A DNA stretch of 64,000 nt. It comes from Halorussus marinus (GTDB lineage: Archaea > Halobacteriota > Halobacteria > Halobacteriales > Haladaptataceae). Positions 6,857 to 28,661 of the stretch are shown one piece after another (positions within the stretch are counted from its first letter, which is position 1; every line of letters begins with the position of its first letter). Both the position numbers and the translations under genes were made by a program. The DNA lies in NCBI RefSeq assembly GCF_004765795.1, contig NZ_SBIV01000003.1, positions 1-64,000 of the forward strand. Reading direction: 5' to 3'. The notes under the pieces are model-generated. The model was given only the letters and a program-made list of their open reading frames with translations. It did not search any database and was not told where the DNA came from.

Positions 6857-6983
6857 TAGCCTACGAGAGTCACTCTGGTTTCAATAGTGTTCTCCCACTT
6901 GAGAGGACACTCTTGATTGTTGGTCTCCTCCTCCCTGCTTAGTGTCTCAACGGCTTTTGGTGTTCAACAACCAACGGACGAGC

Positions 6984-9124: not shown

Positions 9125-9520
9125 ATGGACGATACCAAGCTTGAACGACTACTGAACCAGAAATACGCGCAAGTTGTGCTGAAAGTGTTGCTGGATGCAG
9201 AAGGGGGCAGTTACGCGTTTAGTGCACTTCGAGATGAGGTCAATACGGTTGTTGCAGACGACTCACGGGGGGCTAAGGAAACAGTCCAGGTTGGAGAATA
9301 CTCTCCAGCCTCCTTGAGTTCGATACTTTCGGAGGCAGAGGATGCTGGTGTTGTTACTCGGTTCCTCAATGGAGACGGGGAGAAACGATGGCGACTGTGC
9401 GCTTCAAAGCTGTCCCGGTCCCAGATCGCTAAGCTCAAATCCAGAAACACCGGGGTTCACACGGACACATCAAGTCTCGACCTTCACCACCAGGAGCATA
9501 CCGATTCTACGTTCTCATAG
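9125..9520 (+). CDS. Winged-helix-like hypothetical protein
   Basis: The 131-residue protein has a helix-turn-helix/wing arrangement in residues 5-95: KYAQVVLKVLLDAEGGSYAF, FSALRDEVN, a polar insert, then SPASLSSILSEAEDAGVVTRFLNG followed by a wing ending KRWRLC. This is the layout of marker-less archaeal wHTH regulators. The Ser/His-rich tail is probably disordered. A TATA-like TATTATTTACAT lies about 30 bases before the start. Target unknown; it may regulate the neighbouring recombinase genes. Confidence 0.6.
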   Translation: MDDTKLERLLNQKYAQVVLKVLLDAEGGSYAFSALRDEVNTVVADDSRGAKETVQVGEYSPASLSSILSEAEDAGVVTRFLNGDGEKRWRLCASKLSRSQIAKLKSRNTGVHTDTSSLDLHHQEHTDSTFS

Positions 9521-9670
9521 CCGACTGAATAACTTGCTTCAGTAGGGGTTTGATCGTCTCCTCTCCAAGAAACCGGTCACGAATCATCGACCTGTATAAA
9601 AATTTCGCTGGTGAAGTGACTTCACCCCCGGTTTGGCGATTATCCCCTGGCCCGAACGCTTGGATGCGTC

Positions 9671-10354: not shown

Positions 10355-10548
10355 TAACTTACTGGCTGTAGCGAACTGCCGAACTAGCTTCCGGTTGCTT
10401 CGGCCCTTTCGAAACCATACTAATCAGGCACCATCCGTGGTGAAACACTCGCAAGTGAGGTTGCGAGTTTAATGATAAGGGTGGTGTATTGGTGGAGGAC
10501 GGAAGAGCGTATCAAGAGTGAATACGTACCGCCTATTTCACCTGCTGA

Positions 10549-11655: not shown

Positions 11656-11782
11656 CCTTCTTTGGTCTCTTCTCGCCCTCCGATTTACAGATCTGGAGTT
11701 GTCCAGAGCGGTTGCTTCCAGTTTCGATGGGAGACTGTTAGAAGTCGTCGGACGTTCTGGAGAGTAGAGTGACCGACAACGG

Positions 11783-13087: not shown

Positions 13088-13106
13088 TTATTAATTTGAA
13101 GTGCAG

Positions 13107-13519: not shown

Positions 13520-13531
13520 TTTCTGTGTATG
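13520..13531 (+). promoter_or_regulatory. Half-site of the shared catabolic-cluster operator
   Basis: TTTCTGTGTATG is identical to the right half of the perfect palindrome at 19447-19465. It lies about 25 bases upstream of the TATA box of the first aminotransferase gene. The left arm is not conserved here. Confidence 0.45.
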
Positions 13532-13549
13532 ATATGGATAGAATCCGTG

Positions 13550-13562
13550 GATAAGATATTTA
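13550..13562 (+). promoter_or_regulatory. TATA box of the first aminotransferase gene
   Basis: GATAAGATATTTA lies about 25-37 bases before the ATG at 13587 (and 13-25 before an in-frame ATG at 13575), the usual distance for a leaderless haloarchaeal transcript. Confidence 0.55.
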
Positions 13563-13586
13563 TGGATCATTCGCATGCGTTCTCCT

Positions 13587-14969
13587 ATGACGGCTGGACC
13601 ACCCATCGACGAGTTGCACTACGACGACGCGCCCGACGTGAGCACTGTTCCCGGACCGGAATCCGAAAAACTGCTTCAGAAGCAACGCGACATCGACAGC
13701 AGCGCGGTCGCGTACCCCGAAGATATCCCCGTCGCCCTCGAAGAGGGCAAGGGCGCGACGGTCCGCGACGCGGACGGTAACACGTTCATCGACATGTTCG
13801 CGGGCATCGGCGTGTTGAACGTCGGCCACGCGAACCCATACGTGCTAGAGGCGGTCCACGAGCAGACCGACAAGCTCGTCCACACCGTCGACTTCCCGAC
13901 TGAGGCCCGACTCGAACTCATCGAGAAGCTCGACGAGATCGCCCCCGAGGGCCTCGAAGGGAACAACCGGGTCGTCTTCGGCGGCCCGACCGGCAGCGAC
14001 GCGGTCGAGGCCGCGATCAAGCTCGCGAAGTACAACACGGGCGGCGACGGCCTCGTCGCCTTCCGCGGAGCGTACCACGGTGCGACCAGCGGCGCGATGA
14101 GCCTCACCGGCAACAAGAAGTTCAAAGCGGATTACACGCCGCTGCTCTCGGAGGTCGTCCACGCCCCGTACCCCCATCCGTTCAGACAGGGCAAAGAGCC
14201 CCAGGAGGCGGTCGATCACGCCCTCGAAGAGGTCCGGGCCATCGTCGAGGACCCGTACGGCGGGCTCGCCAACCCCGCGGGCATCTTCGTCGAGCCGATT
14301 CAGGGCGAGGGCGGCGTCATCACGCCACCGGAGGGCTTCCTCAAGGGCCTGCGCGAGATCGCCGACGACAACGACGTGACGCTCGTCTTCGACGAGATCC
14401 AGGCGGGGCTCGGCCGCTCGGGTCAGTGGTGGGCCAGCGAGTGGTACGACGTCACCCCCGACGTGATGACCACCGCCAAGGCGCTCGGCGGCGTGGGCTT
14501 CCCGCTGTCGGCGACGATGTACCACGAGGACCTCGACACTTGGGGGTCGGGCGACCACGCCGGCACCTATCGGGGTCACGTCGTCGCGATGCGCGCGGGC
14601 ACTCGGGCCATCGAGTACATGCAGGACCACGACCTGCTCGCCCACGCTCGCGAACTCGGCGACCACATCCGCCAGCGTCTCCGGGACGTCGGCGAGGAGA
14701 CCGGCGCAATCGGTGAGGTCCGGGGCAAGGGCCTGTTCATCGGCGCGGAGTTCGTCGACGCCGACGGCGCGCCCGACGACGACGCGGTCGCGGCCATCCA
14801 ACAGCGTTGCTACGAGAACGGCGTCCTCGTCTGGAAGGCCGGGCGACACGGCAACGTGCTCCGGCTCCTCCCGCCGCTGGTGCTCACCGAGGCGCTCGCG
14901 GAGACCGCGATGGACGTCGTCGAGCAGGCGATCCGCGACGTCGCCGCCGACGCCAAGAGCGTCGCCTGA
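13587..14969 (+). CDS. Class III (omega) PLP-dependent aminotransferase
   Basis: The 460-residue enzyme has all class III landmarks: [15 protein letters not shown] for phosphate binding, [40 protein letters not shown] with the cofactor Asp, and TTAKALGG with the Schiff-base Lys near residue 298, then [13 protein letters not shown]. It moves an amino group from an omega-amino or diamino acid to an oxoacid in the cytosol. With the ectoine-hydrolase gene in the cluster, diaminobutyrate is a plausible substrate (DoeD role); 4-aminobutyrate is an alternative. A RidA gene follows 41 bases later. I chose the ATG at 13587 by its distance from the TATA box. Confidence 0.88.
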
Positions 14970-15010
14970 TCGCGGAGCGAGAGACGACCCACTACCATCC
15001 ACGACGACCT

Positions 15011-15400
15011 ATGACCGACACCGACCGAATCGTGACCGACGACGCACCGCGCAACGACAACCCCTACTCGCAGGGGGTCCGGGCCGGCGACACGCTGTAC
15101 GTCTCTGGCCACGGCCCCGTCGACCCCGAGACCTGCGCGGAGGTCGACGGCGACGTGCAGGCCCAGACCGACCGCGTCCTCGACAACCTCGCGGCGGTCG
15201 TCGAGGAGGCCGGCGGCGACGGGCTCGACGACGTGGTCAAGGTGACCGTCTACCTCACCGACCTCGACGACTACGACCGCGTCAACGACGCCTACGGCGA
15301 GCGGTTCCCCGGCGACCCGCCCGCGAGAGTCTGCGTCGAGGTGTCCCGGCTCCCCGGCGACGTCCGGATCGAACTCGACGCCGTGGCGTATCTGGGCTGA
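15011..15400 (+). CDS. RidA/YjgF family imine or enamine deaminase
   Basis: The 129-residue protein shows the Rid pattern: NPYSQGVRAGDTLYVSGHGPVDPET near the N-terminus, QTDRVLDNLAAVVEEAGG, VVKVTVYLTDLDDYDRVNDAYGERF and PARVCVEVSRLPGD. The Arg of PPARVCVEV is the expected substrate-carboxylate ligand. Rid proteins hydrolyse reactive enamines and imines released by PLP enzymes. Its place directly after an aminotransferase fits such a clean-up role. A second, more RidA-like copy is at 59664-60044. Confidence 0.9.
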   Translation: MTDTDRIVTDDAPRNDNPYSQGVRAGDTLYVSGHGPVDPETCAEVDGDVQAQTDRVLDNLAAVVEEAGGDGLDDVVKVTVYLTDLDDYDRVNDAYGERFPGDPPARVCVEVSRLPGDVRIELDAVAYLG

Positions 15401-15407
15401 CCCCGAC

Positions 15408-16475
15408 TCACTCGCCGTCGGTTTCGCGGGCCACGACGAGCGGGTCGTCGTCGGGGACCGCGAGGTCGAGCAGTGGATCGTTCTCGTAGGCGGTCGCGCC
15501 CTCGTGGCGGCTCAGGACGTAGCCCGGCCGGTCGGTCCGGACGGTCGCCCTGTGCTCGCCGTGCGGGGTGAGGATGTCCGCCACGGGCTCTCCGTCCTCG
15601 ACGACGTCGCCCTCTCGGACGCGGTACCGAACGACTCCGGCGGTGTCGGTGTGGGGGTGGACCGCCCGCTTTCGCGGCGACGGCGTGGGCGCTTCGAGCT
15701 GTGGTTCGGCTCGGGGCGGCTCGTCGACGACCCCGAGCGCCCGCGCCACGTTCTTCAGTCCCTCGACGCCGTAGCGTCTGGCGTCGTCCTCGACGACGTA
15801 TCGCCCGCCGAGCTCGGGCGTGAAGGCCGGAATCCCGGCCTCGTGGACCGCGGCGCCCGACAGCGACCGGTGGAGCCCCTCGGCGACTTCCCGGGACCGC
15901 TCGTACTGGTTCACGACCGGCAGGCCGAACGCCGCGGTCAGGTCGGTTAGCCGGGTCGCGAGCGCGTCGGCTTCGTCCTCGGTTCGGTCTCGCCCGTAGG
16001 TGACCCGCGGCTGGATGACGTACGACGCCGAGCCGACCCACGAGGTGTGCAACGAGACGAGGGCGTCGGCGGTGTCGGCGACGAGATCGAACAGCCGGCG
16101 GTCGATGATCTCCTGGACTCGCGGTGGCCGGGTCGCCTCGGCGTCGGTGGCTGGGAAGTAGCGGTTGGGATCGTCGCCGTGGTAGTACGACGTCCGGCCG
16201 GTCACTCGGAGTCCGGCCGGGTTGGTGTTTGGGACGCAGACGACCCGCCCGGCGAGTCCCTCGGGGTCGAGCCACTCGACGAACTCGTGTGCGACCGCCA
16301 GACTCGTCGTCTCGTCGGCGTGGATCGCACCGACGACCCACAGCGTCGGGCCGGACTCGGCGCCGTCCGCGACGACGATCGGCAGTCGCTCGGCGCCGTC
16401 GGTCGGGAGCTCGGTCGCTTCGACGTACCCGGTCGTGGTCTCGCCTGCACGTACCTCTGCAGTTCCGATCTCCAT
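15408..16475 (-). CDS. Succinylglutamate desuccinylase/aspartoacylase family deacylase
   Basis: The 355-residue protein belongs to the M14-like zinc hydrolase family: GAIHADETTS (about 50-59) gives the His and Glu zinc ligands, VPNTNPAGL and GDDPNRYFP follow, and SLHTSW gives the third ligand. The C-terminal 100 residues form a separate beta domain (VVRYRVREGDVVEDGEPVADI), like the biotinyl/lipoyl-type barrel seen in some family members. DoeB/EutE, which removes acetyl from N-acetyl-diaminobutyrate in ectoine breakdown, is in this family, so that role is plausible here. The substrate is not proven by sequence. It converges on ridA with a 7-base gap. Confidence 0.78.
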   Translation of the reverse strand: MEIGTAEVRAGETTTGYVEATELPTDGAERLPIVVADGAESGPTLWVVGAIHADETTSLAVAHEFVEWLDPEGLAGRVVCVPNTNPAGLRVTGRTSYYHGDDPNRYFPATDAEATRPPRVQEIIDRRLFDLVADTADALVSLHTSWVGSASYVIQPRVTYGRDRTEDEADALATRLTDLTAAFGLPVVNQYERSREVAEGLHRSLSGAAVHEAGIPAFTPELGGRYVVEDDARRYGVEGLKNVARALGVVDEPPRAEPQLEAPTPSPRKRAVHPHTDTAGVVRYRVREGDVVEDGEPVADILTPHGEHRATVRTDRPGYVLSRHEGATAYENDPLLDLAVPDDDPLVVARETDGE

Positions 16476-16565
16476 ACCGGCCTTCCGCGCGATGCCGACA
16501 AAACGCGTTCGCCACCGGCAACGCAGTTTCCGCCGTCGAGTCGCTCGGCGACGCGGCGGTCCTCC

Positions 16566-17219
16566 TCAGTCGTTGAGTTCTTCGACGCGCTGGTCGCGGC
16601 GCTCGGCGGCGGCGTCGACCTGTTCGATGAACTCGGTCATCTGGGCTTTCATCTCCGAGCGGATCTCGGTCGGCGAGAACTCCTCGGACTCCGAGAGGAG
16701 CCGGACGAACGCCCACAGCTCCTCGTCGGTGACCTCGCTGAAGTCGCCGAATTCGAGTTTGTCGATGACCTCGTCGACGTCGATCTGGCCGACCGGGTCG
16801 ACGTTGAAGTCGACGGTGACCATCCGGTAGTCAGATCCCGCGAGCTCCTGTTCGGCCTTGTTGACCCCCTGCGAGAGCATGTCCTTGAACGGGGTGTAGT
16901 AGCCCATCGTCCCGAGGTGGAGGAAGGCGAGCAGGTCGATGATGCCCTGCGTGTACGCCTCGCGGGCGTCGTCGTCGGGGTTGAACACCGTCTCGCGGTC
17001 GCGGTCTTCGAGGTGTTCGAACAGGATCGTGAAGTCGAGGATGGAGTTGCGGATGCGGCGTCGGATCCGGTTTCGCTTCTGCTTTTTCGAGTGTTCGGTG
17101 TAGTCGGTCTTGCGCCCGAGCAGGAACTCCCGGTCGCTCGGCGTGAGGATCCCCCTGCCGCGGTCGGGCGAGTACGTGACGCTCGCGTCGGAGTCGGCCT
17201 CGTCGGGACCGTCGGTCAT
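16566..17219 (-). CDS. Haloarchaeal protein of unknown function, possible regulator
   Basis: The 217-residue product begins with an acidic tail. Next comes GRGILTPSDREFLLGRKTDY and a strongly basic helix SKKQKRNRIRRRIRNSILDF (about 44-63), then helical LFEHLEDRDRETVF and an acidic C-terminus ending in a helix. I recall this opening pattern from an abundant haloarchaea-only family without known function; the basic helix could touch nucleic acid. The cluster operator (17217-17235) overlaps its own start codon, with a TATA-like element about 27 bases upstream, which would suit an autoregulated regulator of the cluster. That role is inference. Confidence 0.6.
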   Translation of the reverse strand: MTDGPDEADSDASVTYSPDRGRGILTPSDREFLLGRKTDYTEHSKKQKRNRIRRRIRNSILDFTILFEHLEDRDRETVFNPDDDAREAYTQGIIDLLAFLHLGTMGYYTPFKDMLSQGVNKAEQELAGSDYRMVTVDFNVDPVGQIDVDEVIDKLEFGDFSEVTDEELWAFVRLLSESEEFSPTEIRSEMKAQMTEFIEQVDAAAERRDQRVEELND

Positions 17220-17235
17220 ACACAGAATGTGTGTA
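17217..17235 (-). promoter_or_regulatory. Cluster operator over a start codon (copy B)
   Basis: Read on the minus strand, TACACACATTCTGTGTATG ends exactly on the ATG of the gene at 16566-17219. It shares TTCTGTGTATG with the palindrome at 19447-19465 and has the same geometry relative to the start codon. Confidence 0.6.
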
Positions 17236-17519
17236 CGTATTTGATTAAGGGTTACGGTAGTCGGACGATATTTCCGGCTGATTCGGCGAGAGACGGGTCG
17301 AAACCGGGTACGGCGGTGATCGACGGGGCGATGGGGTCGCCGAATAGAGAACGACAGTCGGGTGCATTTCGACCGGGCGCGATCCGAACTGCGCAGACGA
17401 CTGCTCGTGACGCCGAAAAGCGACCGCCGAGTAATCCCGTCGCCGCCCCCGACATTCTCTCCCCCGCCGGCGAATTACCGTTAGGGAAGTAAACGAATAG
17501 CGTATACTAGAGGATTCAA

Positions 17520-17538
17520 TACACATATTCTGTTTCCA
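17520..17538 (+). promoter_or_regulatory. Cluster operator-like site upstream of the BCCT transporter
   Basis: TACACATATTCTGTTTCCA matches copy B at 14 of 19 positions. It lies about 20 bases before a TATA-like GTTTATG (17559-17565) that could drive the small gene at 17629 and the transporter. Confidence 0.4.
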
Positions 17539-17628
17539 TTGACCTCAATAAACGTAATGTTTATGCCAATTGTTCACGACGGATGGGGTGTGCGACATCA
17601 GATAGCACGGTGCGCGTGAGGTACCCTC

Positions 17629-17772
17629 ATGAAAGCTAGAGAGTACGGCGCTACGTCCGATCCGACGTGCGAACAGCTCGACGAACGCATCTCCGTGACT
17701 ACCGGAATCGGTCAACCGGGAGCGTCCCCCGAAACCGATTTCCGGTTACGGGAGGTGGTCGCCCGTGAGTAA
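17629..17772 (+). CDS. 47-residue small protein or leader peptide overlapping the BCCT gene
   Basis: An ATG at 17629 preceded by GAGGT (17618-17622) opens a 48-codon frame that ends GAG TAA at 17770-17772, eight bases into the transporter gene, whose GTG start is at 17765. The peptide MKAREYGATSDPTCEQLDER... is acidic, with one Cys and no membrane segment. The transporter ribosome site GGAGGTG lies inside this frame. The overlap and both ribosome sites argue for translational coupling. Whether the peptide itself has a function, or only regulates the transporter, cannot be told. It is not a known family to me. Confidence 0.5.
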   Translation: MKAREYGATSDPTCEQLDERISVTTGIGQPGASPETDFRLREVVARE

Positions 17773-19408
17773 CGCCGACGACCTCGGGGCCGTCGGCCGG
17801 TTCAGAGAAGAGCTCGACCCGATCGTGTTCCTGTTCGGCGCGGGCCTGACCGTCGGACTCATCGCGCTGTACTTCGTCGACTCCGCGCTCGTCCAGGACG
17901 GGATCGACGCGGCCAACGGCCTGATAAACCAGTATCTCAACTGGGCGTTGCTGATCATCGTGTTCCTCATCGTCCTGTTCTTGCTGTTCCTGATCGTCGG
18001 CCCGTGGGGGAACATCAAGCTCGGCGACGAGTCGCCGGAGTACAGCTTCCTGTCGTTCTTCGCGATGCTGTACTCCGCGGGGTTCGCGGCGGGCGTGGTG
18101 TTCTGGGGTCCGGCCGAGGCGCTGTTCTACTACGACAACCCCTCGCCGCTGTTCGACGTCGCGGGCGGCTCCTCGGAGGCGATGGTGATCGCGGTCCAGC
18201 AGACGATCTTCCACTGGGCGCTCCCCCAGCTCGCGGTCTTCACCATCATGGGGATCGCGATCGGCTACTTCGCGTACAACTACGAGTCGGTTCCGCTCCG
18301 GGTCTCCTCGGCGCTGACCCCGATCCTCGGCAAGGACAACCTCGACGGCGTGGGCGCGAAGATCGTCGACATCATCGCGGTCTTCGCGACCATCGGCGGC
18401 GTCGCGACCTCGCTTGGCTTTATCGGGAGCCAGTTCATCACCGGGCTCGACTACCAGTGGGGCATCGATCTGGGTGACACCGGCGTCATCCTCGTCGTCA
18501 CCGCGATGACGCTTTTGTTCACCATCTCGATGGTGCTCGGGGTCGACAAGGGGATCCGTCGACTCTCGAACTTCAACATGATCATGTTCGTCGCGCTCAT
18601 GGCGGTGGCGTTCGTCGTGGGTCCGTCGGTGTTTCTCGTGTTGCTCGGGACCCAGGCGCTGGGCGGGATGATCACCGATTTCGTCTCGATGAGCCTGTTC
18701 ACCGGCGCGGGCGCGATGGGCGGGGGCGACCCCGCCGCCACCGAGTGGATGAACGCGTGGACGGTCTTCTACTGGGCGTGGGCGCTCTCGTGGTCGCCGT
18801 TCGCGGGCCTGTTCATCGCCCGCATCTCGAAGGGCCGGACCGTCCGGGAGGTCGCGTTCACCGGCATCGGCGCGACGTCGGCCGCGACCATCCCGTGGTT
18901 CACCATCGTCGGCGGGTCGGCCGTCTGGGCCCAGCACAACGGCACCGCCGATATTCTGGGTCCCCTCGGAGAGATCGGCGCCTCGGTCGCGGGCTACGCG
19001 CTGTTCGAGACGTTCCCGTTCGGCTCGGTGCTGATGGTGGTGTTCATGCTGCTGGTGACCACCTTCTTCATCACGTCGGCCGACTCCTCGACGCTCGCGG
19101 TGTCGATGATGACCACCGGCGGGAAGGCCGAGCCCTCGAACATCAACCGCGTGTTCTGGGGCGTCGTCCTCGGGATGTTCGCCGCGATCCTGATGACCCT
19201 CGGCGGGGTCAACGCGCTCCAGGACGCGGTCATCATCACCGGCGCGCCGTTCGCGTTCGTCTGTTTCGCCGCGTTGCTCGGGCTCGTCCGGGAGTTCAGT
19301 TCGAAGTACGGGCGCGTGTTGTTGCAGGAGGAGACGGCGATCGTCGGCTCCTCGGAGTCGACCGACAAATCCGGGACCGCCACGCGGCCGAGCACCGACG
19401 ACGACTGA
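17765..19408 (+). CDS. BCCT family compatible-solute transporter
   Basis: The 547-residue membrane protein has about twelve hydrophobic spans and the BCCT signature near residue 330: a Trp-rich FYWAWALSWSPFAGLF segment followed by RISKGRTVREV. FFAMLYSAGFAAGVVFWG near residue 95 and FFITSADSSTLAVSMM near 435 are also typical. BCCT carriers take up betaine, carnitine, choline or ectoine with sodium or protons. Its place between ectoine-type catabolic genes suggests ectoine or a related solute. The GTG start is set by GGAGGTG seven bases upstream. The C-terminal tail is short, so osmosensing through a long cytosolic tail is unlikely. Confidence 0.93.
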   Translation: MSNADDLGAVGRFREELDPIVFLFGAGLTVGLIALYFVDSALVQDGIDAANGLINQYLNWALLIIVFLIVLFLLFLIVGPWGNIKLGDESPEYSFLSFFAMLYSAGFAAGVVFWGPAEALFYYDNPSPLFDVAGGSSEAMVIAVQQTIFHWALPQLAVFTIMGIAIGYFAYNYESVPLRVSSALTPILGKDNLDGVGAKIVDIIAVFATIGGVATSLGFIGSQFITGLDYQWGIDLGDTGVILVVTAMTLLFTISMVLGVDKGIRRLSNFNMIMFVALMAVAFVVGPSVFLVLLGTQALGGMITDFVSMSLFTGAGAMGGGDPAATEWMNAWTVFYWAWALSWSPFAGLFIARISKGRTVREVAFTGIGATSAATIPWFTIVGGSAVWAQHNGTADILGPLGEIGASVAGYALFETFPFGSVLMVVFMLLVTTFFITSADSSTLAVSMMTTGGKAEPSNINRVFWGVVLGMFAAILMTLGGVNALQDAVIITGAPFAFVCFAALLGLVREFSSKYGRVLLQEETAIVGSSESTDKSGTATRPSTDDD

Positions 19409-19446
19409 GCCGCGACCCGTCTAATAACAACTTTTAATTGACGACA

Positions 19447-19465
19447 CATACACTTTCTGTGTATG
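19447..19465 (+). promoter_or_regulatory. Perfect 19-bp palindromic operator over a start codon (copy D)
   Basis: CATACAC-TTTCT-GTGTATG is a perfect inverted repeat with 7-base arms. Its last three bases are the ATG of the aminotransferase gene at 19463. A TATA-like CTTTTAATTG (19431-19440) lies about 25-30 bases upstream, so the palindrome covers the transcription start. This is a classic repressor position. Confidence 0.7.
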
Positions 19466-20821
19466 GATAGGGACACCGCGGAACCCGACGCGGACGCGCT
19501 CCCCGGCCCGAACGCCGAGAAGTGGGTGCAGTTCCACGGAGAGCACGCGGCCCCGAGCGAGTACTCCCACGAGTTCGTCTGGGACATCACCGCCGAGGCC
19601 GACGGCCCGTTCGTCACCGACGTCGACGGGAACGTGCTCCTCGATTTCACCTGCCACATCGGGGCCGCGCCGCTGGGGTACAACAACGAGAAGATGCTCG
19701 ACAAGTTCGAGGAGTTCGATCTGGTCGAGCCGATGAAGATCGCCGGCCAGGACATGTACTTCGGGGCGGGTCCCGACCCCGAGTCGTCGTCGCTTCCCGG
19801 TTCGAGCCACCTGATGGCGAGGCTGACGGAGGTGTCGAGCCACTACGACATGGACACGGTCTTCCTGTCGAACTCCGGGGCCGAGGCGGTCGAGAACGCG
19901 ATGAAGATCACCTACGACCGGAACCCGACCGCCAAGTACGGCTTCGCGTTCGCCGACAGCTTCCACGGCCGGACGCTCGGGACCCTCTCGGTCACCCGGT
20001 CGAACGAGGTCTACACCCGCCACTACCCGGAGATCGCCGGCATCCGGACGGTGCCGTTCTGCGACGGCTGTGGCGGCGCCGACTCGTGTGACTGTGGGTT
20101 TTTCACCGGCGAGGGCTCCCAGCTCCGAAACGCCCTCCAGCCCGAGGGCGGCCACCTCAACCCCGACGAGGTCGGATTCGTCGTCGTCGAGCCGATTCAG
20201 GGCGTCGGCGGCTACCGGTTCCCGAGCGAGTCGTTCATGGCGGAGGTCGGTGACGTCTGTGAGACGTACGACATCCCGCTGATCGTCGACGAGATCCAGT
20301 CGGGCGTCGGCCGCACCGGCGAGATGTGGGCCGCCGACCACTACCCCATCGAGCCGGACGTGATCGCGAGCGCCAAGGGGCTCCGGGTCGGCGCGACGAT
20401 CTCGCGCTCGGACGTCTTCCCCGCCGAGTCCAATCGCCTCGGCTCGACGTTCGGCGGCGGCGACATCCTCGCGTCGATGCAGGGCGTGTTCACGCTGGAG
20501 GCGATCGAGGAACACGACCTGCTCGACAACGCGACCGAGCGGGGTCGCCAGGCCACGGAACTGCTCGCCGACGGGTCGCCCGACCACGTCGTCGACGTGC
20601 GGGGCGAAGGACTCATGCTCGCGGTCGAGTTCGACGCCGCCGACCGGCGCGACGCCGTGGTCGAGGAGTCGCTGAAGCGGGGCCTGCTCACCCTCGGCTG
20701 TGGGACCAAGACCATCCGACTGCTCCCGCCGCTCGACGCGACCGAGCGCGAGATCGAGCTCGGCATCGGTATCTTCACCGACGCCGTCGAAGCCGCCGGC
20801 CGCGCGTCGCGGGTCGCGTAG
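19463..20821 (+). CDS. Class III PLP aminotransferase with cysteine-rich insert
   Basis: The 452-residue enzyme has LSNSGAEAVENAMK (135-148), FADSFHGRTLGTLS, VEPIQGVGG, LIVDEIQSGVGRTGEMWA and SAKGLRVG with Lys305 as the Schiff-base residue. A loop at 198-212 (PFCDGCGGADSCDCG) contains four cysteines at 200, 203, 209 and 211, which could hold a metal; I do not know whether this is common in the family. Likely a diamino- or omega-amino acid transaminase acting on solute breakdown products. It is leaderless, with a palindromic operator over its start. Confidence 0.87.
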   Translation: MDRDTAEPDADALPGPNAEKWVQFHGEHAAPSEYSHEFVWDITAEADGPFVTDVDGNVLLDFTCHIGAAPLGYNNEKMLDKFEEFDLVEPMKIAGQDMYFGAGPDPESSSLPGSSHLMARLTEVSSHYDMDTVFLSNSGAEAVENAMKITYDRNPTAKYGFAFADSFHGRTLGTLSVTRSNEVYTRHYPEIAGIRTVPFCDGCGGADSCDCGFFTGEGSQLRNALQPEGGHLNPDEVGFVVVEPIQGVGGYRFPSESFMAEVGDVCETYDIPLIVDEIQSGVGRTGEMWAADHYPIEPDVIASAKGLRVGATISRSDVFPAESNRLGSTFGGGDILASMQGVFTLEAIEEHDLLDNATERGRQATELLADGSPDHVVDVRGEGLMLAVEFDAADRRDAVVEESLKRGLLTLGCGTKTIRLLPPLDATEREIELGIGIFTDAVEAAGRASRVA

Positions 20822-20929
20822 GACCCGGATCACGACGATCGGCGTCCGGCGTCCGAGTGCTCGGACCGAATCGAGCTCGGAGGCGAGACGCCAGACGCGC
20901 CTCGGCGCGGACCGACTCCTCGCCGGACG

Positions 20930-21100
20930 TCAGTCCTCGACCGCGACCCCGTCGAGAGCGTCCAGCCCGTCGAGCGTCTCCGCGAGGTGCTCGGGGCCGC
21001 TACCGGCTATCGCGGCGGCGACGGGGGTTCGGTTCGGATCGGCGGTCTCGACGTCGGCGTGAGTGACGACGTCGTCGGCGTCGGGGGCGCGCTCGGTCAT
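20930..21100 (-). CDS. 56-residue acidic protein coupled to the M20 amidohydrolase
   Basis: The ATG at 21098-21100 overlaps the stop of the amidohydrolase gene as ATGA, and the frame runs 57 codons to a TGA at 20930. The peptide MTERAPDADDVVTHADVETA... and its ending EHLAETLDGLDALDGVAVED have fully haloarchaeal codon use and acidity. No cysteine, membrane span or family motif is visible. The classic four-base overlap makes it likely to be a real, co-translated gene. Function unknown. Confidence 0.55.
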   Translation of the reverse strand: MTERAPDADDVVTHADVETADPNRTPVAAAIAGSGPEHLAETLDGLDALDGVAVED

Positions 21101-22377
21101 GCGCCGTCGGTCGCGACCGAGCGGATCGACTCGGTCAACACCTCGACACCGGTCGCGAGGCTCCGCTCGTCGACGTCGAACGTCTCGGTGTGGTGGCTCG
21201 TCGGGTGGTCGGTGCCGACGATGAGGTACGACGCGAGCCCGCCCGCCTCCTGGACGCGCTCCATCAGGAAGGTGGCGTCCTCGCTCGCGCCGAAATCGGC
21301 GGTCGGCACGACGGTGTCGACGCCCTCGACGCCGCGGGCGGCGTCCGCGACGACGTCGACGAGTTCGGGGTCGCTGTCGGCCCGCGGCGACTCGCTGACC
21401 ACCTCGACCGTCGCCTCACAGCCGTGCATCTCGGCGGCGGTCTCGACGGTCTCGGTCAGCCGGCCTTTCGCGTACTCCATCAGCTCGGTGGTCTCCCCGC
21501 GGGCCTCGGCGACGAGGTCGGCGCGCTCGGCGATCACGTTGCTCGCGGTCCCAGACGACGCCTTGCCGACGTTCACCCGGGTCATCCCGTCCTCGTGGCG
21601 CGGGATGGCGTAGGCGTTCTGGATCGCGGTGCCGAGCGCCTGCATCGCGTTGTCGCCGTCCTGTGGGGCCTTTCCGGCGTGGGCGGAGGTCCCCCGGATG
21701 GTCGCGTCGACGTGGCACATCGCCAGCGGGCGCTCGATGCCTGCGACCACCTCGCCGGTCGGGTGGTCGAGGCCGACGTGGACCGCCAAGAAGTAATCGA
21801 GCCCTTCGGCGAACCGGCTCCGGGCCATCGGGTAGCCGCCGCCGGAAGTTTCCTCGGCGGGCTGGAAGAAGACGACCAGCCGACCCGCGAAGTCGCTGTC
21901 TTTGATCGCTTCGAGCGTCGCCAGCCCCCAGGTCATGTGGGCGTCGTGGCCGCAGGCGTGCATCGTCTCGCCGGTCTCCGACCGGAACCCCTCGGCGGCC
22001 GGAGCGTGGTCGTCGGCGCTCGACTCCTCGATGAACAGCCCGTCGATGTCGACCCGAAGGCCCACTGTCGGCCCCTCGCCCCGGTCGAGCACCGCGATCG
22101 CGCCGGTGTTGCCGCCCGCCATCGCGTCGAGGAGCCCGGGGTCCGCGCCCCGGTCGCGCGCGCGCTCGAACCACCGTTCGACGCTGTCGTCGTCGGGCAC
22201 CGCCATCCGGTCGTCGGGGTCGTACGCGTCGGGACCGACGGCGAGCTCGTCGACGCCGATCCGTTCGAGCGCCTCGACCAGCAGGTGGGTGGTGTAGAAC
22301 TCGCGCCACGCCGGCTCCGGATACCGGTGGAACTCGCGTCGGGTCTCGGCCAGTTCGTCTCGAACCGTCTCTGGCAT
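21097..22377 (-). CDS. M20 family metallo-amidohydrolase
   Basis: The 426-residue protein carries the M20D signature: LRVDIDGL (Asp near 110), ETMHACGHDAHM (137-148, with Cys142 and His144), FFQPAEETSGGG, the dimerisation-domain marker GTSAHAGKAPQDGDNA, and a final VGTDHPTSHHTETFDVDE. Relatives hydrolyse N-acyl amino acids or p-aminobenzoyl-glutamate. In this cluster it could deacylate an N-acetyl-diamino acid, overlapping with the AstE-family enzyme, or an N-acyl solute. It is divergent from the D-2-hydroxyacid dehydrogenase gene and co-translated with a 56-residue protein. The family is certain; the substrate is not. Confidence 0.88.
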   Translation of the reverse strand: MPETVRDELAETRREFHRYPEPAWREFYTTHLLVEALERIGVDELAVGPDAYDPDDRMAVPDDDSVERWFERARDRGADPGLLDAMAGGNTGAIAVLDRGEGPTVGLRVDIDGLFIEESSADDHAPAAEGFRSETGETMHACGHDAHMTWGLATLEAIKDSDFAGRLVVFFQPAEETSGGGYPMARSRFAEGLDYFLAVHVGLDHPTGEVVAGIERPLAMCHVDATIRGTSAHAGKAPQDGDNAMQALGTAIQNAYAIPRHEDGMTRVNVGKASSGTASNVIAERADLVAEARGETTELMEYAKGRLTETVETAAEMHGCEATVEVVSESPRADSDPELVDVVADAARGVEGVDTVVPTADFGASEDATFLMERVQEAGGLASYLIVGTDHPTSHHTETFDVDERSLATGVEVLTESIRSVATDGA

Positions 22378-22510
22378 GCGTGGACCTCACACGCTCCAGC
22401 CACTTATTTGTAAACGCTTTCCGTTAATAGTGGCTACACAAAGGATTAAGTCCGCCACTCGCCATGGGTCGAACACTCACAGCGCGTCCGCGAGACGCGA
22501 CCACCCAACC

Positions 22511-23482
22511 ATGAACGAGAAACCCGACGTCGTCGTCCTTCGGGAGGGGACCGAAGGGCTATCGATGGAATCGTACGCCGACGAACTGCGCGACCGACTC
22601 CCCGACCGCACCGTCGCGCTCGCGCGTACGCCGAGCGAGGAGCGCGAACTCGTCGCCGACGCCCGGGTCGTCACCGGCATCACCGTCGACGAGGAGACGC
22701 TCTCGGGAGCCCAACGGCTCGAACTGTTCGCCTGCACGTTCGCGGGCACCGACCACGTCCCGATGGACGCGTTCGCCGACCGCGGGGTCGCGGTCACGAA
22801 CGCCGGCGGCATCCACGCGCCCGGCATCGCCGAGCAGGCGATCGGCAACATGCTCGCGTTCGCGCGCCGGCTCCACGAGGGGTGGCGGCGCAAGCGGAAC
22901 CGCGAGTGGCGCCACTTCCAGTCGAGCGAGTTCACCGACAGCACCGTCACCGTGATCGGGCTCGGCTCCATCGGACAGGCGGTCGTCCAGCGCCTCGACG
23001 GGTTCGAGGTCGACACGATCGGCGTCCGCTACACCCCCTCGAAGGGCGGGCCGACCGACGAGGTCGTCGGCTTCGACGAGGAGGCGATCCACGACGCCCT
23101 CTCGCGCAGCGAGTACGTCGTCGTCGCCTGCCCGCTCAACGACATGACCCGCGGGCTGATCGGCGAGGCCGAACTGGCGACGCTCCCGACCGACGCCGTG
23201 GTGGTCAACGCCGCCCGCGGCCCCATCGTCGACACCGACGCGCTCGTCTCGGCGCTGCGCTCGAACAAGATCCGGGGCGCGGCCCTCGACGTGACCGACC
23301 CCGAGCCCCTGCCCGAGGACCACGCGCTCTGGACCCTCGAAAACTGCCTGATCACGCCCCACACCGGCGGCCACACCCCGCGCCACTGGGAGCGGCTCGC
23401 CGACATCGTCGCCGACAACGTCGAACGGCTCGACTCGGGCGCGGCGCTCGAAAACCAAGTACTTGCGCCCGAGTCCCGTTAG
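22511..23482 (+). CDS. D-isomer-specific 2-hydroxyacid dehydrogenase
   Basis: The 323-residue enzyme has an NAD-binding fold with VIGLGSIGQAVVQRL near residue 146, the catalytic Arg in NAARGPIVD, a Glu in DPEPLPEDHALW and the catalytic His in LITPHTGGHTP. It reduces a 2-oxoacid to a D-2-hydroxyacid, or the reverse, with NAD(P)H in the cytosol. The next gene, nine bases away, encodes a large FAD/Fe-S enzyme of the type that oxidises D-2-hydroxyacids, so the two may act on the same compound with different electron carriers. The ATG at 22511 is chosen because the longer frame includes promoter sequence. Confidence 0.9.
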   Translation: MNEKPDVVVLREGTEGLSMESYADELRDRLPDRTVALARTPSEERELVADARVVTGITVDEETLSGAQRLELFACTFAGTDHVPMDAFADRGVAVTNAGGIHAPGIAEQAIGNMLAFARRLHEGWRRKRNREWRHFQSSEFTDSTVTVIGLGSIGQAVVQRLDGFEVDTIGVRYTPSKGGPTDEVVGFDEEAIHDALSRSEYVVVACPLNDMTRGLIGEAELATLPTDAVVVNAARGPIVDTDALVSALRSNKIRGAALDVTDPEPLPEDHALWTLENCLITPHTGGHTPRHWERLADIVADNVERLDSGAALENQVLAPESR

Positions 23483-23491
23483 CTCGAACAG

Positions 23492-26400
23492 ATGGCCACA
23501 CACGACACCCCGGCCGCCGACGAGCGGCCGGACCGCGACGACGATCCGGCGGCCGACCCGCGGGCCGACTACGACTACGTCGGCGGCGGCGTCGCCGACG
23601 CGGAGCTCGTCGGAGACCTCCGCGACCGGATCGACGGCGAGGTCCGCTTCGATTCGTACTCCCGCCAGCTGTACGCGACCGACGCCAGCGCCTACGAGGT
23701 GACGCCGATCGGCGTCGTCCTCCCGGCCTCGACCGCGGACGTCGCGGCGGTCGTCGAGTACTGCGCCGACCGCGAGATCCCGGTCCTCCCGCGGGGTGGC
23801 GGGACCAGCCTCGCCGGGCAGGCGGTCAACGAGGCGGTCGTGCTCGATTTCACGACCCACATGGGCGAGCTGGTCGAGGTCGACCCCGACGACCGCCGGG
23901 CGCGGATGCAGGCCGGTGCGGTCCTCGCGGAGCTCAACGACGAGCTCGCGCCCCACGGTCTGAAGTTCGCGCCCGACCCCGCCGCGGGCAACCGGAGCAC
24001 CGTCGGCGGTGCGATCGGGAACAACTCGACGGGGGCTCACTCGCTGAAGTACGGCAAGACCGACGCGTACGTCGAGTCGTGCGAGGTCGTCTTGGCGGAC
24101 GGCACCGTGACGACGTTCGGCGAGGTCTCGCTCGACGAACTCCGAGCCCGGGCCGACCCGGCGGCCGAGGACCTCCAAGCCCGCATCTACGCCGAGGTCG
24201 CTCGCATCGTCGACGAGGAAGCCGAGGCGGTTCGGGACGTCTACCCCCAGCTCAAGCGCAACGTCTCGGGGTACAACCTCGATCGATTGATAGCCGAGGC
24301 CGAGGACGGCTCGGTCAACCTCGCGCGCCTGCTCGCCGGGAGCGAGGGCACCCTCGGGATCGTCACCGAGGCGACGGTCTCGCTCGAACCCGTCCCCGAG
24401 ACCAAGGCGGTCGCGCTCCTCACGTACCCCGACCTGCTGGACGCGATGGCCGACGTCGACGACATCGTCCGGGACCACGACCCGGCGGCCGTCGAGGCCA
24501 TCGACGACGTGTTGCTCGATCTGGCCCGAGACACCGAGGAGTTCGCGGACGTGGTCGGGATGCTCCCGTCGGGGACCGAGACCGCGCTACTCGTGGAGTT
24601 CTACGCCGAGGACGACGCCCGCGGCCGCGAGCAGGTCGCGGACCTGCTCGACGACCGCGTGGGCGACCGGGCGTTCGACGCGCTCGAAGCCCACGACGCC
24701 GACGAGCGCGCCCAGCTCTGGAAGCTCCGGAAGTCCGGGATGCCGATCCTGCTCTCTAGGACCTCCGACGCCAAACACATCTCGTTCATCGAGGACACCG
24801 CGGTCCCGACCGAGAACCTCGCCGACTACGTCGCGGAGTTCCAGCGGGTCCTCGAAGACAACGACACGTTCGCGAGCTTCTACGCCCACGCCGGTCCCGG
24901 GTGTATGCACATGCGCCCGCTGGTCGACACCAAGAGCCCGGCGGGAGTCAACCAGATGGAGTCCATCTCGGACGCGGTGACCGACCTCGTCGTAGAGTAC
25001 GGCGGGAGCGTCTCGGGCGAACACGGCGACGGCCGCGCCCGGACCCAGTGGAACCGCAAGCTCTACGGCGACCACGTCTGGGGCGTGTTTCGCGATCTCA
25101 AGACCGCGTTCGACCCCGACTGGCTGCTCAACCCCGGGCAGGTGTGTGGCGACGTCGACATGACCGAGAACCTGCGATTCGACCCCGACTACGAGTTCGA
25201 GGCCGGCTTCGATCCGGCGCTCGACTGGGCCAACGAGAACGGCTTTCAGGGGATGGCCGAACTCTGTCACGGCTGTGGGGGCTGTCGGGGCGAGCAGGAG
25301 ACCACCGGCGGCGTGATGTGTCCGACCTACCGGGCCGCCGACGAGGAGAGCCTCAGCACGCGCGGCCGGGCGAACATGCTCCGGCAGGCGATGAGCGGCG
25401 ACCTCGATCAGGATTCGACCGACACCGAGTTCGTCGCCGAGGTGATGGACCTCTGTATCGGCTGTAAGGGCTGTAAGCGCGACTGTCCGAGCGAGGTCGA
25501 CATGGCGAAGCTCAAAGCCGAGGTCGAACACGCCCACCACGAGGAGCACGGCGCCGACCTCCGCGAGCGCCTCTTCTCGGAGGTCGACCGGCTCAACGCG
25601 GTCGGATCGGCGCTCGCGCCCCTCTCGAACTGGGCCGAGAAGCTCCCGGGGGCCCGCACCCTCCTGGAGAAGACCGTCGGCATCGCCCGCGAGCGCGAGC
25701 TCCCGACGTTCCACCGCGAGAGCTTCGTCGACTGGTTCGAGGCCCGGGGCGGTCCCCGTGTCTCTGCGGCCGACGCGGTCCGGAAGGTCGCGCTGTTCCC
25801 CGACGCGTACACCAACTACAACCATCCCGAGGCCGGGAAGGCGGCGGTCCGCGTCCTCGAAGCCGCGGGGGTCCGGGTCCGGATCCCGGCGGACGTGACC
25901 TCGACCGGGCGGCCGGCCCACTCGAAGGGCTTTCTCGACAAGTCCCGCGAGCGCGCCGCGCAGAACGTCGACGCGCTCGCGCCGAAGGTCGAAGACGGCT
26001 GGGAGGTGGTGCTGGTCGAGCCCTCCGACGCCGTGATGCTCCAGTCGGACTACCTCGACCTGCTGGGCGAGACGACCGACGCCGAGCGGGTGGCGAGAAA
26101 CACCTACGGCGTGCTGGAGTATCTCGACCGGTTCGACCTGACCGACGCGGTCGCGTTCGACGCGCCAGACGAGTCGGTGACCTACCACGGCCACTGCCAC
26201 CAGAAGGCGACCAAGAAAGACCACCACGCCGCCGCGGTGCTCGACGCGGCGGGCTACGAGGTGGACCCGCTGGACTCGGGATGTTGCGGGATGGCCGGGA
26301 GCTTCGGCTACGAGGCCGAACACTACTCGATGAGCAGAGCGATCGGCGAGATCCTGTTCGAGCAGGTCGAGGCCAGCGACGGCGACGTGGTGGTCGCGCC

Positions 26401-26497
26401 CGGCGCGTCGTGTCGGACCCAGCTCGGCGACCGGGATGGCGACGCCCCCGAGCCGCCCCACCCGATCGAGAAGGTCGCCGACGCCGCCGGCCGGTAG
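23492..26497 (+). CDS. FAD-linked oxidase fused to Fe-S and CCG domains (YdiJ/Dld-like)
   Basis: This 1001-residue protein joins several modules. Residues about 45-260 form a PCMH-type FAD-binding domain (LPRGGGTSLAGQAV, GNNSTGAHSLKYGKTDAYV). Residues about 265-560 form the FAD-oxidase C-terminal domain, with HAGPGCMHMRP and SGEHGDGRARTQW. Two iron-sulfur motifs follow (CHGCGGCRGEQ and CIGCKGCKRDCP). Two CCG-type segments close it (YHGHCHQK, DSGCCGMAGSFG). The layout matches E. coli YdiJ, a D-2-hydroxyglutarate dehydrogenase, and D-lactate/glycolate oxidase-GlpC fusions. It likely feeds electrons from a D-2-hydroxyacid to the respiratory chain at the inner membrane face. The exact substrate is open. 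Confidence 0.9.
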   Translation: MATHDTPAADERPDRDDDPAADPRADYDYVGGGVADAELVGDLRDRIDGEVRFDSYSRQLYATDASAYEVTPIGVVLPASTADVAAVVEYCADREIPVLPRGGGTSLAGQAVNEAVVLDFTTHMGELVEVDPDDRRARMQAGAVLAELNDELAPHGLKFAPDPAAGNRSTVGGAIGNNSTGAHSLKYGKTDAYVESCEVVLADGTVTTFGEVSLDELRARADPAAEDLQARIYAEVARIVDEEAEAVRDVYPQLKRNVSGYNLDRLIAEAEDGSVNLARLLAGSEGTLGIVTEATVSLEPVPETKAVALLTYPDLLDAMADVDDIVRDHDPAAVEAIDDVLLDLARDTEEFADVVGMLPSGTETALLVEFYAEDDARGREQVADLLDDRVGDRAFDALEAHDADERAQLWKLRKSGMPILLSRTSDAKHISFIEDTAVPTENLADYVAEFQRVLEDNDTFASFYAHAGPGCMHMRPLVDTKSPAGVNQMESISDAVTDLVVEYGGSVSGEHGDGRARTQWNRKLYGDHVWGVFRDLKTAFDPDWLLNPGQVCGDVDMTENLRFDPDYEFEAGFDPALDWANENGFQGMAELCHGCGGCRGEQETTGGVMCPTYRAADEESLSTRGRANMLRQAMSGDLDQDSTDTEFVAEVMDLCIGCKGCKRDCPSEVDMAKLKAEVEHAHHEEHGADLRERLFSEVDRLNAVGSALAPLSNWAEKLPGARTLLEKTVGIARERELPTFHRESFVDWFEARGGPRVSAADAVRKVALFPDAYTNYNHPEAGKAAVRVLEAAGVRVRIPADVTSTGRPAHSKGFLDKSRERAAQNVDALAPKVEDGWEVVLVEPSDAVMLQSDYLDLLGETTDAERVARNTYGVLEYLDRFDLTDAVAFDAPDESVTYHGHCHQKATKKDHHAAAVLDAAGYEVDPLDSGCCGMAGSFGYEAEHYSMSRAIGEILFEQVEASDGDVVVAPGASCRTQLGDRDGDAPEPPHPIEKVADAAGR

Positions 26498-26538
26498 GCC
26501 GGGCCCGGCGCCGTCTCGGGGCGGTCCGCGCCCCGCGT

Positions 26539-27717
26539 TCAGGCCGTGAACAGCTCTCGCGGGAACTCCGCGAGCACCTCCGCGCCGCTGGACGTGACCC
26601 GGAAGGTCTCGCTGAGCTCGACGCCGAAGTCGTCGAACCACAGTCCCGGGATCATGTGGAAGGTCATGTTCTCCTCCAGGATCGTCTCGTCGCCCGGCCG
26701 GATGCTGGCGGTGTGCTCGCCCCAGTCCGGCGGGTAGCCCAGCCCCATCGAGTAGCCGATCCGGTCTTCTTTCTCGACGTCGTACTTCGCGATCGTCTCG
26801 CGCCACGCCTTCTCGACGGACTCGGCGGTCACGCCGGGTTCGACCGCGTCGAGCGCGGCGTCGATGCCCTCGACCACGATGTCGGCGGTCTCTTGGACCT
26901 CCGCCGGCGGGTCGCCGACGAACGTCGTCCGCGCGAGCGGCGAGTGGTACCGATGACGACAGCCCGACAGCTCGATGATGACCGGGTCGCCGTCCTCGAA
27001 CTCCCGGTCGGTCCAGGTGAGGTGGGGCGTCCCGGTGTGGTCGCCCGACGGCATCAGGGGCACGATCGAGGGGTAGTCGCCGCCGTACTCGTCGGTGCCG
27101 TCGACGAGCGCCGAGTAGATCGCCTCGGCGGCCTCGTACTCCGGGACGCCCTCGCCGATGGCGTCGAGCCCCGCGGCCATCGCGTTCTCGGAGATGCGGG
27201 CGGCCTGGCGCATGTACTCTAACTCCTGCTCGGATTTCTCGACCCGGGCCCAGTTGACCAACAGCGTGTGGTCCTCGAAGTCGGCCTCCGGGAGGTTCTT
27301 CTGGAGGCGAGTGTAGGACTTGGCGGTGAAGTAGTAGGCGTCCATCTCCAGTCCGACCGTACCGTCGGCGACTCCGAGCGCCTCCAGTTGGTCGGCGAGA
27401 AAGTCCATCGGATGGAGGTCGTACGGCGAGTGAACGTGGTCGTCGCTGTACGCCCGGATGCTGTCCTCGTCGAGCGTCGTGGTCGCCCGAGCGCCGTTGG
27501 CGTCCATCTCCCGGCCCACCCACACCGGTTCGTCGCGGTCCGGGGTCACGATGACCGCCTGATGGACGTAAAACGACCAGCCGTCGTATCCCGTGAGGTA
27601 GTTCATGTTCGCGGGGTCGGAGACGACGAGCGCGTCCAACTCCTCCTCGCGCAGTCGCGTTTTCGTCCGTTCGATTCGGCGTTCGTACTCGCTCTCGTCG
27701 AAGATCACCTGAGACAT
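26539..27717 (-). CDS. doeA: Ectoine hydrolase (DoeA/EutD-like, M24 fold)
   Basis: The 392-residue protein has the creatinase-like N-domain and pita-bread C-domain of the M24 family. Segments recalled from DoeA/EutD appear throughout: NYLTGYDGWSFYVHQ, PVWVGREMDANGA, HPMDFLADQ, VGLEMDAYYFTA, YGGDYPSIVPLMPSG, GLGYPPDWGEH and ENMTFHMIPGLW. The M24 metal ligands are missing: IIELSGCRHRYHSPLART has Glu and Pro where the two Asp should be, and GYSMGL lacks the His. That is expected for DoeA, which opens the ectoine ring without metal to N-acetyl-diaminobutyrate. ATG at 27717 is preferred over a GTG 15 bases upstream. Confidence 0.8.
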   Translation of the reverse strand: MSQVIFDESEYERRIERTKTRLREEELDALVVSDPANMNYLTGYDGWSFYVHQAVIVTPDRDEPVWVGREMDANGARATTTLDEDSIRAYSDDHVHSPYDLHPMDFLADQLEALGVADGTVGLEMDAYYFTAKSYTRLQKNLPEADFEDHTLLVNWARVEKSEQELEYMRQAARISENAMAAGLDAIGEGVPEYEAAEAIYSALVDGTDEYGGDYPSIVPLMPSGDHTGTPHLTWTDREFEDGDPVIIELSGCRHRYHSPLARTTFVGDPPAEVQETADIVVEGIDAALDAVEPGVTAESVEKAWRETIAKYDVEKEDRIGYSMGLGYPPDWGEHTASIRPGDETILEENMTFHMIPGLWFDDFGVELSETFRVTSSGAEVLAEFPRELFTA

Positions 27718-27762
27718 GGCAACGCTACTCACTACCCCGTTCGCCGACCGAGAGTATAAGGT

Positions 27763-27796
27763 TTTTTGTGTACGATAAAATCGGTTACTGTGTATA
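27763..27796 (+). promoter_or_regulatory. Two half-sites of the cluster operator upstream of doeA
   Basis: TTTTTGTGTACG (27763-27774) and TTACTGTGTATA (27785-27796) each match 10 of 12 positions of the shared half-site TTTCTGTGTATG. They lie 46-79 bases upstream of the doeA start, adjoining a TATA-like CTTATAC on the minus strand (27754-27760). Confidence 0.4.
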
Positions 27797-27807
27797 TCTC
27801 GGTCGAG

Positions 27808-28518
27808 TCACTCTCGCAGGCGCGCCAACACCGGGAGCTCCTCGATTCGCTCGGCCGACAGCGCCTCCCAGATGATCCCGACGGGCCGATCGTAGTCGGT
27901 CTCGGTCCGGATCGTCCGGGTCGGGGTCACCACGAGGTCCATCGGCACGTCGTGGGCGTCGACGTCGACGGGTCCGTCGATCACTTGGGCGTCGTGGACC
28001 GTGGTCGCGATCGTGGTCTCCTCGTCGACCAGTCCCAGTTCGCACAGGACCGCGTATTCGAGGTCGCTGTACCCCTCGCCCTTGCCGATCCGGGCGCCGG
28101 CTTCGGTAACCGCGACGCTCCCCGAGACCACCAGATCGATCGCGTCGACCGCGTCGGGACCGACCTGCCGGGCGTGGTCCTCGACGTGCGAGACGGTCGG
28201 CGCGCTGTCGTACGCCTCGGGCGGGATCTCGCCGGGGTCGAGTTCGTAAAAAGGCTTCTCGTCGCGGAGTCGCGGCACGGCCATGTAGACGGTCTTGCCC
28301 GCCCGGAGCGCCCGCCGGCGGACGGGCAACTGGGGCGCGTCGGGGTTGGCTTTCACCGCGTCGGCCGCCCGCCACTTGTCGGTCTCGGCGAGTCGGTCGG
28401 CGGCGTCGGCGGCGCCCGCGACGTTCGGAATCCGGCCGTGGGGCGGAAACGGGAAGCGCGCGATCCCCTCGGCTTCCAGTCGGTCCCAGATGCGCTCGCG
28501 GTACTCCTGTTTGTCCAT
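27808..28518 (-). CDS. 5-formyltetrahydrofolate cyclo-ligase family protein
   Basis: The 236-residue protein (start MDKQEYRERIWDRLEAEG) contains KANPDAPQLPVRRRALRAGKTVYMAVPRL (broken here by helix) and GARIGKGEGYSDLEYAVL, the GKGxGYxDLE motif that binds the folate/ATP pocket in 5-formyl-THF cyclo-ligases and MTHFSD relatives. It likely recycles 5-formyltetrahydrofolate or a related pterin, or is a paralogue of unknown role. It stands at the edge of the solute cluster, about 90 bases behind doeA and in the same orientation. It need not belong to the same pathway. Confidence 0.75.
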   Translation of the reverse strand: MDKQEYRERIWDRLEAEGIARFPFPPHGRIPNVAGAADAADRLAETDKWRAADAVKANPDAPQLPVRRRALRAGKTVYMAVPRLRDEKPFYELDPGEIPPEAYDSAPTVSHVEDHARQVGPDAVDAIDLVVSGSVAVTEAGARIGKGEGYSDLEYAVLCELGLVDEETTIATTVHDAQVIDGPVDVDAHDVPMDLVVTPTRTIRTETDYDRPVGIIWEALSAERIEELPVLARLRE

Positions 28519-28661
28519 ACTCGCGTTCGGTCCGTGGGCGCCGAAAAGCTCCCGGCTCCGGGCCAAGCGTGATACTTCTCGCTCGCCGGACTAAACCGTT
28601 TGGCCCGCGTCGCTCGCTCGAAAAGTAACCATTAAACGGAGCGCGTCCGTCGGCTTCGAAT

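Follow-up and report, generated by a model that had tools for sequence, protein, structure and literature searches.

The window, a stretch of 64,000 nucleotides at the start of contig C3 (NZ_SBIV01000003.1) in the 3.76-Mb genome of the haloarchaeon Halorussus marinus, carries a gene cluster that includes an M24-family protein resembling bacterial ectoine hydrolases (Table 1). A first-pass annotation had described a DoeA/EutD-like hydrolase, an AstE-family deacylase, an M20 amidohydrolase, two class III aminotransferases (AT1 and AT2), RidA and a BCCT importer as lying together in a cluster for ectoine catabolism. All of these genes are present, intact and free of internal stops near their annotated coordinates, and an importer for compatible solutes together with omega-transaminases does fit ectoine catabolism. 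Four further features had been missed: a hypothetical protein, for which no match was found among the Pfam or NCBIfam models, a D-2-hydroxyacid dehydrogenase, a 1001-residue FAD/Fe-S oxidoreductase and a 56-codon gene remnant. The true start of the hydroxyacid dehydrogenase is probably downstream of 22376, with homology beginning at residue ~68. A 5-formyltetrahydrofolate cyclo-ligase gene (27808–28566) falls outside the ectoine-type unit.

Table 1. Features of the H. marinus cluster in order along the window
Feature	Position	Strand	Basis
AT1, class III aminotransferase; candidate for conversion of diaminobutyrate (DABA) to aspartate semialdehyde (DoeD-like role)	13575–14969	+	PF00202
RidA enamine/imine deaminase	15011–15400	+	TIGR00004, 131.7 bits, above cut-off
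AstE/AspA-family hydrolase; accessory, not a conserved cluster member	15408–16475	-	TIGR02994, 50.6 bits (cut-off 402.7)
Conserved haloarchaeal hypothetical protein, between RidA and BCCT	16566–17219	-	Same position in other clusters
BCCT-family importer	17765–19408	+	PF02028, 485.9 bits
AT2, second class III aminotransferase	19463–20821	+	PF00202; syntenic orthologues
56-codon in-frame remnant of a threonine-dehydratase-like (EutB-like) gene	20930–21100	-	Alignment to full-length Halorussus proteins
M20 amidohydrolase; candidate N-acetyl-DABA deacetylase	21097–22377	-	TIGR01891, 248 bits, above cut-off
D-2-hydroxyacid dehydrogenase	about 22376–23482	+	NF041369, 251 bits
FAD-linked/Fe-S oxidoreductase, 1001 residues, YdiJ/GlcD-GlpC type	23492–26497	+	PF02913, PF01565, PF02754, Fer4
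M24 ectoine-hydrolase-like protein (DoeA/EutD family)	26539–27717	-	PDB matches, TIGR02993, residues, trees

The closest solved relatives of the M24 protein were 6twk and 6twj, RpEutD chains named ectoine hydrolase DoeA (389 bits), followed by the prolidase family at 104 bits, and its identity to annotated bacterial ectoine hydrolases is 43–47%, a level of similarity to solved and annotated members that leaves its fold clear. The five metal ligands of M24 enzymes, which read D, D, H, E and E in one of the strain's own prolidase-like paralogues, align with E, P, a gap, I and S in the window protein and with E, P, a gap, M and T in RpEutD. Because all five ligands are replaced, a metallopeptidase role is strongly disfavored. 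Glu255 and His238 (RpEutD numbering) are retained, as they also are in the wider family; from the work of Mais et al. in 2020, Glu255 of EutD is reportedly the nucleophile. Three motifs, GGDYPxIVPLxPSG, PHLTW and YPPDWGExTxS, are common to this protein and bacterial DoeA and altered in paralogues; the corresponding stretches here, GGDYPSIVPLMPSG, PHLTW and YPPDWGEHTAS, match bacterial DoeA nearly letter for letter and differ in the paralogues from Shinella and from an accessory Sinorhizobium meliloti plasmid. The window protein keeps 35 of the 76 DoeA-specific columns and its relative from Priestia 38, with 22 kept by each of those two paralogues. The first-pass annotation had suggested a tree with DoeA and other M24 proteins; in maximum-likelihood trees, the haloarchaeal M24 proteins fell inside the EutD family, with the ectoine hydrolases and distant from the strain's other M24 proteins, prolidases and creatinase. 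Judged by residues and placement, the M24 protein is not a peptidase, prolidase or creatinase, and ectoine is the best inference for its substrate. Its nearest homologue, from Halorussus amylolyticus, is 92% identical. Elsewhere, EutD-family M24 genes paired with M20 hydrolases were located on the accessory S. meliloti plasmid (L107:6983-12943) and in Shinella (L106:7001-9362), and in Pantoea and Agrobacterium (loci L140 and L141) M24 proteins of a more remote group are encoded together with M20, an enzyme of the mandelate racemase family and an ABC transporter for amino acids.

These residues bear on a reading of the locus as a general peptide and amino-acid catabolic cluster, in which an M24 Xaa-Pro peptidase and an M20/AstE carboxypeptidase or deacylase would act with the transaminases, RidA and glutamate dehydrogenase. 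It would suit what the proteins are called at family level (M24, M20, class III aminotransferase, threonine ammonia-lyase) and the existing annotations as metallopeptidase and amidohydrolase, but the loss of every metal ligand speaks strongly against it, and BCCT importers transport compatible solutes, not peptides; we regard it as very unlikely.

A scan of GTDB genomes for the M24 protein gave 67 loci, nearly all haloarchaeal, in genera that include Halorubrum, Haloferax, Natrinema, Natronococcus and Haladaptatus. Since the same genes recur in near-identical order at ~60 haloarchaeal loci in some 20 genera, their grouping is not due to chance. Across loci the genes typically run M24, glutamate dehydrogenase, FAD/Fe-S protein, hydroxyacid dehydrogenase, M20, threonine-dehydratase-like protein, AT2, BCCT, hypothetical protein, RidA and AT1, with some genes absent from some loci; Halorussus vallis and Haladaptatus sp. 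DYSN1 provide annotated examples. An M20 relative is present in 58 of the clustered loci, not counting the window. A glutamate dehydrogenase gene comes after M24 in the majority of 28 loci; it does so in H. vallis, and is missing at the corresponding place in H. marinus. The D-2-hydroxyacid dehydrogenase and FAD/Fe-S oxidoreductase (22376–26497) are conserved cluster members in most haloarchaea.

Co-inheritance was examined in 59 related genomes. With the orthologue line for M20 set at the score gap after the scores were seen, and with one genome that has only a 41% M24 relative (G042) scored as lacking M24, an M20 orthologue was found in 21/21 genomes with a close M24 and in 0/38 of the others (Fisher p = 2e-16, descriptive only, the genomes being related). 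The two genes lie within 9 kb of each other in 20 of the 21, and near opposite ends of one contig in the remaining genome (G020); within the genus Halorussus, 5/18 genomes have both and 13/18 have neither. Co-occurrence of AT1 and AT2 with M24 varies with the orthologue line, with 64–70% copies in some genomes that lack M24, and our argument therefore leans on M20 and on synteny.

For the second step of the pathway, the first-pass annotation had assigned the AstE-family protein to the DoeB/EutE role, and this assignment was not supported. The protein reaches only 50.6 bits against the EutE/DoeB model TIGR02994 (cut-off 402.7) and is encoded 10 kb from M24. Among the 59 relatives it lies inside the cluster in only three genomes, namely H. 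marinus, G010 (79%) and G016 (split), and paralogues at 50–59% occur elsewhere in many genomes, including some without M24. An ectoine pathway in which it nevertheless serves as the DoeB-type deacetylase of H. marinus would draw on its membership of the EutE superfamily (24–25% identity) and its site in the cluster, but set against the sub-cut-off score and its absence from nearly all other haloarchaeal clusters this variant is highly improbable. AstE was rejected as the main DoeB candidate, and the protein is probably not DoeB. The hydrolase that is conserved next to M24, at almost all haloarchaeal loci, is the M20 protein, and conservation of this kind makes it the better candidate for N-acetyl-DABA deacetylation.

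The best NCBIfam models for AT1 include diaminobutyrate–2-oxoglutarate transaminases, all under cut-off (TIGR00709, 353.9 versus 401.6), and its nearest solved protein is the archaeal 7vno, which resembles 4-aminobutyrate aminotransferase, with the DABA aminotransferase 6rl5 matching at 230 bits. No DoeC, an aldehyde dehydrogenase (ALDH) resembling succinate semialdehyde dehydrogenase, was found inside the cluster, in line with the earlier view that it would have to lie elsewhere. An ALDH or an aldehyde ferredoxin oxidoreductase (AOR) is encoded near M24 in 11 loci: a succinate-semialdehyde-dehydrogenase-like ALDH in three (L039, L051 and L091), to which an ALDH on contig C5 of H. marinus is 61–63% identical, and an adjoining AOR in eight others, mostly Halorubrum. 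An AOR on contig C2 of H. marinus has 75–79% identity to most of these M24-adjoining AORs. By this resemblance, either the C5 ALDH or the C2 AOR could oxidize aspartate semialdehyde. No obvious ectoine genes were seen by eye around the C5 ALDH and one AOR on contig C6, where no family search was run.

A threonine-dehydratase-like gene stands full-length beside M20 in most relatives (17/21 genomes). At the same place in H. marinus, the first ~20 residues of the remnant correspond to the start and the last ~36 to the end of the full-length H. amylolyticus and H. vallis proteins, in frame; as judged by this alignment, an in-frame internal deletion has reduced the gene to 56 codons. The full-length H. 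vallis homologue scores above the threonine ammonia-lyase cut-off and well, but sub-cut-off, for threo-3-hydroxyaspartate ammonia-lyase, an activity that, speculatively, would suit a hydroxyectoine branch. Apart from the remnant, no clustered eutB or eutC was found in the H. marinus cluster. Two candidates elsewhere in the window were rejected: the OCD-like (cyclodeaminase-like) gene at 55980 as EutC, which matches archaeal alanine dehydrogenase at 378 bits and EutC at 184, and the threonine dehydratase at 60090 as EutB, which scores as threonine ammonia-lyase. Ectoine synthase gave no match in the H. marinus genome, but the family matched no control genome either, and absence is not shown.

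Gene content, synteny, co-inheritance, the lost peptidase metal ligands, kinship with EutD and the gene remnant are read directly from the DNA; from them we infer every substrate and reaction of what is likely a haloarchaeal module for scavenging and catabolism of ectoine and, in most relatives, perhaps of 5-hydroxyectoine as well. In the proposed pathway, BCCT would bring ectoine into the cell, where the metal-free M24 hydrolase would open the ring to give N-alpha-acetyl-DABA. Acetate would then be removed by the M20 amidohydrolase rather than by AstE, and AT1, AT2 or both would convert DABA to aspartate semialdehyde with 2-oxoglutarate, which the adjoining glutamate dehydrogenase may regenerate in many relatives. 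Aspartate would be made by an aldehyde oxidizer encoded outside the cluster (C5 ALDH or C2 AOR), with RidA disposing of reactive enamine/imine side products. In relatives, the threonine-dehydratase-like enzyme may act in a branch through 3-hydroxyaspartate for hydroxyectoine; H. marinus, having lost the gene, may be limited to ectoine.

Several results weigh against this assignment. The M24 protein scores 463.3 bits against the curated DoeA model TIGR02993, under the cut-off of 613, as does its Priestia relative (530.9 bits). The trees qualify the earlier label of DoeA/EutD-like: the haloarchaeal proteins branch just outside the narrow proteobacterial DoeA clade, and outside the grouping of DoeA plus M20-paired paralogues; characterized DoeA is nearer to the M20-paired bacterial paralogues than to the haloarchaeal proteins (bootstrap 97–99), and a constraint uniting DoeA, Priestia and haloarchaea without those paralogues was borderline rejected (p-AU 0.0495, approximately unbiased test). 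With uncharacterized paralogues also in the wider EutD family, the tree alone therefore leaves the substrate unsettled. The nearest solved protein to M20 is an aminobenzoyl-glutamate utilization protein (3io1, 283 bits); M20 belongs to the broad TIGR01891 amidohydrolase family, reaches 89.6 bits against the DoeB2 model NF038260 (cut-off 550) and has just 25% identity to the M20 protein of Priestia, of which it would be a functional equivalent. The known ectoine pathway has no step for the hydroxyacid dehydrogenase or the FAD/Fe-S protein, and no EutE, EutC, EnuR or AsnC was found in the cluster by Pfam/NCBIfam search.

Part of this evidence would also suit a module that degrades a related cyclic amidine or an N-acylated diamino acid other than ectoine, as the M24 and M20 pairs of Shinella and the accessory Sinorhizobium plasmid may. 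Such pairs without an adjacent DoeB do exist in bacteria, the S. meliloti plasmid included, and the position of the haloarchaeal M24 outside the DoeA clade points the same way. The plasmid case is qualified by the canonical doeAB that S. meliloti strains also have on pSymB; moreover, the haloarchaeal proteins retain DoeA active-site motifs lost in the Shinella-type paralogues, and eutB and a cyclodeaminase gene accompany the nearest bacterial M24 relative in its cluster. We consider a non-ectoine substrate unlikely. Within the preferred reading of an ectoine module, we propose only tentatively that haloarchaea have a distinct pathway, in which an AbgA-like M20 protein replaces EutE, ALDH and AOR are exchangeable, the D-2-hydroxyacid dehydrogenase and FAD/Fe-S protein form an extra branch, and use of hydroxyectoine varies by dehydratase loss.

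Directly adjoining the cluster, window positions 600–13100 form a block of low GC3 with three tyrosine-recombinase-family genes (7889–8683, minus strand; 9671–10354, plus; 11783–13087, minus), an AbiEii-type gene (3027–4151) and an HNH endonuclease gene (10549–11655), and the block is probably an integrated mobile element.

Compared with the Doe/Eut systems of Halomonas elongata, Ruegeria pomeroyi and S. meliloti, the haloarchaeal cluster shares an M24 protein of the ectoine hydrolase family, a class III aminotransferase, an importer and, in most haloarchaea, a dehydratase relative, whereas it has no conserved AstE-type DoeB partner, clustered DoeC, EutA/EutC or EnuR/AsnC, uses BCCT instead of Ehu/Ueh, and adds the hydroxyacid dehydrogenase and FAD/Fe-S protein. 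The closest bacterial M24 found, 54.8% identical, lies in a Priestia megaterium pPmT-3 cluster that likewise has M20 in place of DoeB and a threonine-dehydratase-type EutB; the Priestia cluster differs in having an ALDH inside it, a cyclodeaminase, a homoserine dehydrogenase, a pyridoxal phosphate enzyme of the cystathionine gamma-synthase type, a regulator of the PucR type and a ProP transporter.

Ectoine degradation has long been assigned to Proteobacteria (PMC3187862, PMC5924519). According to main-text passages of an April 2026 paper in Appl Environ Microbiol (PMC13188858), >100 archaeal hits are >55% identical to a Bacillus EutD, archaeal EutD clusters that also hold genes for an aminopeptidase, an aminotransferase and a BCCT protein are conserved across genera and termed provisional, and Bacillota clusters have abgB and no eutE. 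The halobacterial clusters described there resemble that of H. marinus in this gene content; those passages assign no archaeal deacetylase and do not mention the hydroxyacid dehydrogenase, dehydratase, glutamate dehydrogenase, ALDH/AOR links or gene loss. The first-pass annotation had named no characterized archaeal case, and the archaeal clusters of the 2026 paper are predictions. The H. marinus cluster belongs to this predicted kind and is not a first, and its novelty is modest because such archaeal clusters were already reported in what those passages of PMC13188858 describe. To this the present analysis adds tests of M24 by residues and trees, an argument favoring M20 rather than AstE, candidates for DoeC and the dehydratase deletion.

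Ectoine is a protective solute of bacteria, and haloarchaea, which as a rule counter salt with potassium and not with ectoine, share brines with bacteria that make it. The cluster poses a clear alternative between M20 and AstE-type deacetylation and, if it works as proposed, these archaea would feed on bacterial osmolytes, and the biochemistry of ectoine catabolism could for the first time be approached outside Proteobacteria.

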